From Agelas oroides (lineage: Eukaryota; Porifera; Demospongiae; Agelasida; Agelasidae): a stretch of DNA of 64,000 nt. The position numbers and the translations under genes were made by a program. The DNA is taken from the NCBI GenBank assembly GCA_949130485.1, contig OX422187.1, positions 10,780,898-10,844,897 on the forward strand. Reading direction: 5' to 3'. The notes beneath the pieces are model-generated. The model was not told the DNA's origin. It searched no databases and saw only the letters and a program-made list of their open reading frames with translations. The stretch's first letter is position 1, and each line of letters begins with the position of its first letter. Positions 10,458 through 22,211 of the stretch are shown here, piece after piece.

Positions 10458-13400
10458 TCAGGGTATTTCTACATCACTGTCCGGCTGGGTGACCATAATC
10501 AGTGGTGCGGGAGGCAGTGCGGGGGAAGGTACAGCAAGGTGTTTCTCTTTGCTATCTATTGCTGAGAAACCATCTGCTGAGCAAGAGAACTCAAGGTAGC
10601 CTGCTTGGCGCTCTAGATCTGTTGACACCAACACCACCAGTGTGGAAAATGGAGGCCGTTCATCAGCATTGGCCTGCCAACATTTCAGCATGATATCATA
10701 TCTGTATGTGACAAAGAAGACATGGAGATTATGGAACAGGTGAAATTGATCCCACACACTGATTAAGTGTAAAGTATATAAAGTCTTCCTTACTGGAGCT
10801 CATATAGCTAGGTAGTACCAGTGGTAACAGTGTGCATTATAATGTGATATGATACTGAGCATTAACTGCACAGTGCAAGATCATGGCTGTAGCATAAATT
10901 CAGGCAGGTTAACGTGAATTTTGAACCAACTACTTTCAAGACCCAAAACTTGCATGTGTGCAGTTTCGTAATAGCCAACGTACAAACATTGTATTTAAAA
11001 CATACTTTTGAACAGAAAGCAGAATGTTACATTGTTTTCAGTCATTTTGGTTCCCCTGGTGGCCATATCTTTAGTACAATGAAGCCTAACGTACTGATCT
11101 TGCTGGTTAGCATTAGCCTGGGGATGAGAGTCTGGGAATGAGGCTAGCTGCAACATTTACACAGTTACATGGAATCTGCAGTCATTATTAAAAAGGGTAT
11201 TTTTGGGCCTAAAATAGCCTCAAAAGCAATCTCAGAAGTTGAGCCAGAGCATCTAATTCCAAATTTTCCTTGGGTGAGTATACACCCAGACCCACCTACC
11301 TGCTGCATTTTATACACATGCAGCTTCTGAGACATTAGTCACATCAATTTGAAATAGCTTGCTACAGCCCTGCAGATGTCTACACTGTAAATTTACATAG
11401 TATCGGTGCAAGCAGCATTCAAAGGCTTGTCCAATCTCCGTCCATTCTCCAGTAGCTGGACCAGAGAGAGAGGGTCCACTCCAGGATAGGGTGCTTTACC
11501 ACCACTGAAGATCTCCCAACAGGTGATCCCAAATGACCACTGCATAGAACAGTGAAAGAACAACATCATGTCAGGATACAGTATGCGCTAGTCCACATGT
11601 ATGGGCAACCTTAACAAGGCTAAGCTCAGTAGCGGAGCCAAGGGTGGGCCTGGGAAGGCCATGGCCCAGCCAAATATTTAGCCAACTTTTCATTGGACCC
11701 CACCAAATTGCCATGCATATACATGGTTACCAAGGCACCTGACATATGCACATTGTATAAGGAATATAGCATGTGTAGACTGTTATGATTTGGACTGTGT
11801 GGACGATATGAAAAAGCAACATTTGCTGTTGAGTTTGCTCTGATTCCTCAAAGAACAGTAAAACAAAGAAAAGAAGACTCTGATATCGACTCCAATTCAG
11901 AGACAGAGATAGAAGTGGAGGAAGAAAGCCCTAAAAGTGAGGAAGACGAGGTCAGTACTAGTAGTAGTTGACTAGAGGGGTCTCAGAGGCCGCCGAAAGC
12001 AATCTCAGACCATCCCGAAAATTTTTGAGAGAGCATGCCACCAAACCCCTCTAACACTTGAGTGCAGAGCACACAAGTTGCTTCCGCTCCAGCGCTACCC
12101 CTGGCCCACCCATGTACAAAGTTCTAGCTCCGCCACTGGCTAAGCTTATCAGACTAACATAGCTAGTGCATCTTTCCACTTCCAAATTGGTATGTACCAC
12201 ATCAGTCTTCTCAGTGAAAACACCATCATTCAGACTCTCTGGACTCATCCACTTCACTGGCAGTTTCACCACTCCATCCTCCCTTCCCTGCCGGAAGTAG
12301 TTCCTGGCATAGACATCCTCAGTCAGGCCAAAATCTGAGACCTTTATCAAATCATGAAGGTCAACCCTGCAAAGAAATCAGCTTATTGTATAGATACCAG
12401 CAGTTGACAATTGGACTACAGCAGCCAATGTTGAAACAGGATTGATACAGACATTTTTCTGGTTTGAAAAGTTGTCTCTGACCTCTCTATCACTGTTACA
12501 GTAACATTACCATCACTGCTAATCATGGTGAAGAAAACAGGGATGGGGCAATGATCCGCTTCCTTGATCTGTCATTTCCAAGGGCTTAGCCCTCCTATGC
12601 CTTCTTGCACAAAAGTGATTTGATTTGATTTTTGTAGTGAAAGTACATGCTTCCAGTAGCTCCGTTCATGAGCAATGGCCTCTGAGCTTCCGTTTCTCAA
12701 GGATTTACACATCCTGCTTTGTGTGTTTGCATAGCCTGGTACAATATCAATGAACTTACAGTTTATTCAAGTGCATGTTGTCTGTAAGTGTTTATAACAT
12801 GCTATATTGTAAGAATATGAAGCTAGCTCACATGCAGTTTCTAGCTGCAAGGTCACGGTGCACAAACTTCTGCTCAGCAAGATACTCCATCCCCTTTGCA
12901 ACCTGCAGACACATGCTGATCAGCCTCTTTGTTGTGTCAGACACCTGTACAAACATAGTTGGTGGACATAATAGACGTTGTCTTGTTTCTAACAAAATAA
13001 TGCTTTGCAAACAGACATATAAGCACTGACATTGTGTGTAGCTATCCTCATTCGAGAAATGAGCTCAAGGCATAATTTTATAGCTGTAGGAAGGCTGGCG
13101 TATAGCTGTAGGAATGTCCATGCAAGAGCATGCCATTGATTGGCTACCATACACACTGAAATCAAAATATATCACCCTTTCCCCCCACTCCAACAAGTGA
13201 TGAAGGTGGTTTGTAGAAATGTGGCTACACATAAGTACATACAAACACGTTACAAATGCACACAACTTACCACGTCTTCATCTGCGGTATCTGAAGGCAT
13301 CAGCTCAGTTCTGTGATTCTTCAGGTAGGATAGCAGACTGCCACTGCCCATGAAGGGCATGATGATGTATGGGGCTGGGCCAGCGTCAATGCACACCCCA

Positions 13401-22211: not shown

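Follow-up and report, generated by a model that had tools for sequence, protein, structure and literature searches.

LRP5/6 have four YWTD-EGF units, LDLa repeats and PPPSPxS motifs. MuSK and ROR carry immunoglobulin (Ig) domains, and ROR carries a Kringle domain as well. A survey reports that the CRD-FZ domains in this kinase group predate the Ror/Musk-specific motifs (PMC8662651), and ROS1 is described as a receptor tyrosine kinase with YWTD propellers (PMC11743138). Parts of such architectures have also been reported from sponges: SRCR together with YWTD in Stylissa carteri (PMC4772301), SRCR with protein kinases in A. aerophoba and D. avara (PMC6208332), and 14 PK_Tyr_Ser-Thr domains counted in the SRCR genes of Amphimedon (PMC10855680). 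FZ and TyrKc stand among the abbreviations in the legend of a receptor figure for Halichondria panicea (PMC8242945), and the accessible text of an Eph paper (PMC6485061) and of a haplosclerid paper (PMC4704026) contains no architecture that joins all of these modules. Pairwise combinations (SRCR with YWTD, SRCR with tyrosine kinase) are thus already known from sponges. The full combination of SRCR, YWTD-EGF, CRD and kinase was not found in literature text, figures and supplements apart, in agreement with the original prediction for this locus, which knew of no described receptor with all of these modules.

We examined a window of 64,000 nt from Agelas oroides; window positions refer to this whole stretch of DNA. 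It contains a predicted receptor gene on the minus strand (22211..10458, the focal gene) with 23 exons, a frame that is open throughout from the start codon at 22211 to the stop codon at 10458, and GT-AG ends at 22 of 22 introns in the final model (Table 1). The start, stop and exon count had been predicted and were confirmed. For the exon 16/17 junction, the acceptor of a first model was dropped because it occurs in the focal gene only and is absent from paralogues; both sites of the adopted junction are common to four other modelled genes. The corrected protein is predicted to have 1329 residues, with the domain order signal peptide, SRCR, YWTD propeller, EGF, two SRCR, Frizzled-type CRD, membrane helix and tyrosine kinase. 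Exon 1 is 74-85% identical in three fully modelled paralogues (the 74% refers to residues 8-26 only). At the borders between modules the phase is 1 throughout, as expected for exon shuffling.

Table 1. Predicted features of the focal gene and its neighbours in the 64,000-nt window.
Feature	Position	Strand	Basis
Exon 1: start codon and signal peptide	22133..22211	-	hydrophobic N-terminus
Exons 2-3: SRCR domain 1	21394..22067 (22067..21903, 21561..21394)	-	Pfam, paralogue models
Exons 4-7: YWTD propeller	18587..21193 (21193..21064, 19988..19882, 19240..19081, 18996..18587)	-	Pfam Ldl_recept_b, LRP6/LRP4 alignment
Exon 8: EGF (FXa_inhibition) module after the propeller	18331..18462	-	Pfam, paralogues
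Exons 9-10: SRCR domain 2	17707..18225 (18225..18046, 17871..17707)	-	Pfam
Exons 11-12: SRCR domain 3	16242..16627 (16627..16466, 16409..16242)	-	Pfam, paralogues
Exon 13: linker before the CRD exon	15994..16057	-	phase 1 in, phase 2 out; 60-70% identity, 4 paralogues
Exon 14: Frizzled-type CRD, MuSK/ROR kind	14966..15393	-	Pfam Fz; CRD profile against PDB
Exon 15: Ser/Thr/Pro-rich stalk and membrane helix (about 14678..14613)	14551..14812	-	hydropathy
Exons 16-17 (corrected): juxtamembrane segment and kinase start	13850..14445 (14445..14348, 13966..13850)	-	paralogue comparison
Exons 18-22: tyrosine kinase	11397..13713 (13713..13606, 13488..13271, 12944..12832, 12366..12198, 11539..11397)	-	Pfam, motifs
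Exon 23: kinase end, tail and stop codon	10458..10701	-	model, paralogues
Paralogue W25k: signal peptide, five SRCR, CRD, TM, kinase, no propeller; 1232 aa	25261..35113	-	homology model, Pfam
N-terminal exons of another YWTD-bearing paralogue, which continues past the left edge of the window: exon-1-like match, exons of SRCR1, first two exons of the propeller	1045..3268	-	
Opposite-strand paralogue: several SRCR, CRD, TM, kinase; crude model, 12 stops	44565..54569	+	
Opposite-strand paralogue: exon-1-like match, SRCR units, CRD; remainder beyond the window	58165..63885	+	

One strong exon-1-like match and one strong exon-23-like match lie at the two ends of the focal gene, and W25k and A10728 likewise have one of each. 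With the family's own first and last exons as queries (unrelated ones would escape), no further strong match of either kind was found inside the focal gene, which argues against the separate propeller and kinase genes that had been named as grounds for rejecting the prediction. We infer from the gene model that one transcript spans all modules. A repeat search found repeated SRCR exons and, within introns, some short direct and inverted repeats. A long CA/TG repeat (about 17540-17680) occupies part of the intron that follows exon 10; of three paralogues compared, A10728 and A10689 show a shorter CA repeat in the corresponding position and W25k does not. Beyond the 3' end of the gene (window 8756-9416, plus strand), open frames resemble, by eye, the end of a non-LTR retrotransposon.

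The Pfam scan that had been proposed as a check matched SRCR, Ldl_recept_b, FXa_inhibition, Fz and PK_Tyr_Ser-Thr in the focal protein. The scan was done on a first model of 1343 aa, from which the final 1329-aa model differs in the juxtamembrane segment only. SRCR (E 4.4e-81, three stretches), FXa_inhibition (an EGF type; E 2.1e-8) and PK_Tyr_Ser-Thr (E 2.2e-82) were matched in this model, and hydropathy gave one N-terminal and one internal membrane segment. Among the kinase motifs present are GHGEFG, completed across exons 17/18, and SPE. The predicted SRCR, EGF, paired SRCR, membrane helix and intact kinase were thereby borne out, and the predicted protein has the layout of a type I receptor tyrosine kinase, with a signal peptide, an ectodomain, one TM helix and a cytoplasmic kinase with catalytic motifs. 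Six YWTD blades had been counted; Pfam scores four of the six (Ldl_recept_b, E 3.8e-30, four stretches), and the region aligns with LRP4/LRP6 propeller-EGF units over nearly its whole length. The Frizzled-type CRD matches Pfam Fz, at E 1.2e-6 (29.5 bits, under the cut-off of 32.1) in the whole first-model protein and at E 4.4e-8 (34.1 bits, over that cut-off) with the CRD exon alone; it is of the MuSK/ROR kind and matched no Frizzled structure.

This kinship was seen with a profile of 16 CRDs, combining the focal CRD with those of 15 of the 19 further fetched loci (L011, L012, L013 and L021 were omitted as near copies); each of the 16 has a Pfam Fz match with E no higher than 0.1. Up to E 10, the profile matched eight PDB sequences, of which three are MuSK (best E 1.3e-8), two are ROR2 (best E 4.2e-7) and three are an ectonucleotidase at E 0.94, a chance match. 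Frizzled, sFRP and Smoothened were not among these matches. The focal propeller-EGF scored highest against LRP6 unit 1 (240.9 bits) and LRP4 unit 1 (235.7 bits) among single PDB propellers, with lower scores for the best LRP2 unit (194.8 bits) and for LDLR (182-186 bits in most entries). The best 60 of 2216 PDB matches of the kinase are MET, RON, AXL, MER, FGFR and EGFR (the last a fused double kinase), and MuSK is not among these 60. PDB 9p9u, considered as a special relative, was set aside: it consists of two fused EGFR kinase copies, each scoring about 170 bits. Taken together, the CRD looks MuSK/ROR-like by sequence, and the kinase appears to have no special tie to MuSK or ROR, its nearest sequences being MET/AXL/MER among the best 60 of 2216 PDB matches. 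Ig, Kringle, LDLa and FN3 gave no Pfam match up to E 0.1 in the focal protein, and a motif search for PPPSPxS (the LRP5/6 type) and NPxY found neither there.

Each of the three SRCR regions of the focal protein has eight cysteines, which places them in the SRCR superfamily. The CDD and EDAGV acids are kept in SRCR2 and SRCR3; such acids are reported to bind cations in the SRCR domains of SALSA/DMBT1 (PMC7043408), and by motif mapping the two sets of sites are presumed to correspond. SRCR1 has N, N and Q at three of the presumed cation sites.

A search of the whole genome (259 Mb, 141 contigs) with the CRD exon gave 24 rows, and hence 23 CRDs, since one copy appears as two half matches: 19 on contig C5, three on C16 and one on C19. 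Seventeen of the 23 lie in an array within C5:10.55-10.86 Mb, about 310 kb. Module-wise tblastn of C5:10540001-10740000 (200 kb, including 2700 N) and of the 64-kb window found successive genes built as SRCR units, CRD, kinase. Paralogue models were forced on the exons and phases of the focal gene, and the four models of the focal gene, W25k, A10728 and A10689 have no internal stops. A10728 (1969 aa) and A10689 (1970 aa) consist of SRCR, three YWTD-EGF units, two SRCR, CRD, TM and kinase, with a GC donor at one exon in both; Pfam was also applied to the models of W25k and A10728. The first YWTD-EGF unit of A10689 is less sure because a 12 kb gap separates exons 4 and 5 within its first propeller. 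By exon matches, five array genes have 3, 3, 2, 2 and 1 YWTD-EGF units (the two 2-unit genes by position only), and in the 2-unit gene with its CRD at 10752862, the units are separated by SRCR matches. The constant core of the family is SRCR-CRD-TM-kinase and the propeller is an optional module, since it is absent from close paralogues and present one to three times in others.

The array also contains odd pieces and very similar copies. A split second exon-23-like match lies downstream of the end of A10689 (10.681 Mb) and an SRCR1 pair stands alone between A10689 and A10728 (C5:10.718-10.720 Mb); both are likely remnants of unequal exchange. The CRDs of the other four YWTD-bearing genes are near identical (3 or 0 differences in 435 bases); some of the array must therefore have arisen very recently, and assembly duplicates could be among its copies. 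In the opposite-strand paralogue at 44565-54569, some of the 12 stops of the crude model come from wrongly guessed boundaries and others from a broken reading frame in one SRCR exon, which appears at 48818-48974 (plus strand) as two tblastn pieces in different frames, one base apart. This copy may therefore be a pseudogene or hold an assembly error.

In a tree of 20 of the 23 CRDs, two CRDs from C16 stand apart and the other 18 divide into a recent and an older group, each with nine members. Five of the nine recent genes have YWTD-EGF. For seven of the nine older ones, which lie in the fetched 200 kb, tblastn gave no YWTD match there, and no YWTD or EGF match was found near the other two older CRDs or near the C16 and C19 CRDs. 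The propeller is therefore most simply a gain in the recent group and probably a late insert. The five YWTD-bearing genes are not one clade in the tree, and four of them have identical CRD proteins; the focal CRD groups with the copy at 10857595 (96/92), which has a long branch and no such propeller matched nearby. It is therefore likely that modules were lost, or exchanged between neighbours. With 77-81% identity to the focal propeller, and accompanied by EGF, further propellers occur at C7:6.861 and 6.878 Mb and at C1:30.895 Mb, with neither a CRD nor a related kinase matched near them; they may have donated the module or received it. Less similar propellers (53-56% identity) lie at C3:0.52 Mb and at three places on C2, with EGF and then SRCR matches after them on their strand, which makes YWTD-EGF-SRCR a recurrent combination in this genome.

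Pairwise dN/dS (Nei-Gojobori) was 0.23-0.29 for the focal propeller against six paralogous units, 0.35-0.48 for the focal CRD against four paralogues and 0.11-0.18 for the focal kinase against the same four. These values are well under 1, so that all of these modules are maintained as functional protein, with weaker constraint on the outer parts than on the kinase. Outliers were 0.62 for SRCR1 of the focal gene against W25k, 1.82 for SRCR_C2 of A10728/A10689 (seven changes) and 1.38 for one tail comparison (few changes); SRCR_C2 comparisons with the 44565-54569 paralogue pair non-corresponding units. A dN/dS below 1 is a sign of constraint, as distinct from diversifying selection.

SRCR exons are very many in the genome: 150 of 150 scored candidates matched, drawn from 1936 first-look candidates. 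This abundance, together with the literature, points to a sponge as the source. C5:4.59-4.84 Mb holds SRCR and related kinase exons in one region with no match to the focal CRD, which suggests a second SRCR-kinase array. On C8, C10, C15 and C17 there are dense clusters of many open frames with nearly whole PK_Tyr_Ser-Thr domains.

With moderate confidence, we propose from these sequence comparisons that the focal gene encodes a recognition receptor with direct tyrosine-kinase output, drawn from a tandemly duplicated and changing array, rather than a dedicated Wnt receptor. Its N-terminal part would be built from phase-1 exon modules that are gained, lost and multiplied, namely SRCR pairs and 0 to 3 LRP4/5/6-type YWTD-EGF units. 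The SRCR and propeller modules would bind an external ligand on a microbial, matrix or self surface, probably with cations involved at the SRCR acid sites. Ligand binding would cluster receptors, the kinase would trans-phosphorylate the two activation-loop tyrosines, Y1164 and Y1168, and the signal may then pass through the juxtamembrane segment and tail. Sponge SRCR genes are reported to be expanded, largely in tandem and about half so in Amphimedon (PMC10855680); an expansion is reported also in PMC4772301, and some sponge SRCR genes are reported to respond to microbes or microbial molecules (PMC6208332). Together with the SRCR acid sites, this expansion and microbe response favour a recognition role, although the domains would be equally compatible with a role in development or adhesion. 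It is a more tentative possibility that the whole array forms a receptor repertoire, in which a CRD-TM-kinase chassis carries shuffled and multiplied SRCR pairs and LRP-type propeller-EGF units. An LRP4/5/6-type co-receptor and a MuSK/ROR-type CRD would then be fused on a kinase, and microbe or self recognition would be reported by tyrosine phosphorylation.

We consider it unlikely that the protein is instead a Wnt receptor, with LRP-like co-receptor and CRD functions in one chain and kinase signalling. The closeness of the propeller to LRP6 unit 1 and LRP4 unit 1 and the ROR/MuSK kind of the CRD would suit such a role, and Wnt matches (on C8, C22 and C10) as well as three strong matches of Frizzled-type 7TM genes occur in the genome; Wnt binding is therefore possible, and nothing specific points to it. 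The literature on the CRD speaks both ways. A 2020 review deems Wnt binding by the MuSK CRD possible and describes one open MuSK CRD crystal form that could accept the Wnt lipid (PMC6966886), whereas a 2024 paper reports ROR2 and MuSK CRDs without the Wnt-lipid groove, yet with weak WNT5A binding by the ROR2 CRD (PMC11219042). The reported lack of a groove takes weight from the Wnt reading, and a constant SRCR-CRD-TM-kinase core with an optional, probably late propeller leaves it weak. The original prediction had suggested that Wnt co-receptor-like and Frizzled-like ectodomain parts are joined to kinase output. What holds of this is a single predicted chain with all modules, in an order repeated in two paralogues; the MuSK/ROR-like CRD, the optional propeller and the lack of PPPSPxS and NPxY weaken the rest.

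Similarly improbable is a single-chain counterpart of the LRP4-MuSK complex, with an LRP4-type propeller and a MuSK-type CRD on one kinase and a matrix or agrin-like ligand. LRP4 and MuSK are described as working jointly in vertebrates (PMC6966886), the CRD finds its best PDB match in MuSK, and the score of LRP4 unit 1 is about 5 bits below that of the best single propeller, LRP6 unit 1. However, the propeller occurs in only some genes of the array's recent group, which makes it probable that the fusion had an origin separate from the vertebrate pair; moreover, MuSK is missing from the best 60 kinase matches, and the focal protein has neither an Ig match nor NPxY. It is very improbable that one gene is mimicked by two adjacent ones, the first for a secreted SRCR-YWTD-EGF protein and the second for an SRCR-CRD kinase: the single chain is a predicted one, and with all module borders in phase 1 the modules would be expected to join in frame even without a common transcript, but order and phases are identical in two paralogues with three YWTD-EGF units, and the strong first- and last-exon matches to the family's own exons occur once each, at the ends of the focal gene.

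Co-receptor and kinase-receptor modules that are separate chains in vertebrates (LRP4 with MuSK) are here joined by exon shuffling in one predicted chain. This shuffling appears to be caught in progress, with 0, 1, 2 or 3 propellers in sister genes. The array may thus serve as a testable system for the acquisition of ectodomains by receptor kinases and for asking if kinase receptors take part in microbe or self recognition in sponges.

Compared with MuSK and ROR, the focal receptor has the same kind of CRD near the membrane, a single TM helix and a tyrosine kinase; unlike them it has SRCR domains and a propeller instead of Ig, Kringle and NPxY, and a kinase nearest to MET/AXL/MER among the best PDB matches. 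With LRP4 and LRP5/6 it shares a YWTD propeller followed by EGF, nearest to LRP6 and LRP4 by sequence. It differs from these in having one such unit (one to three in the family) as against four, in lacking LDLa and PPPSPxS, and in ending in a kinase as opposed to a non-kinase tail. Like ROS1/Sevenless, the predicted focal protein is a kinase receptor with a YWTD propeller; whereas ROS1 has nine FN3 domains and three propellers, the focal protein, with no FN3 match, has SRCR domains and a CRD instead.
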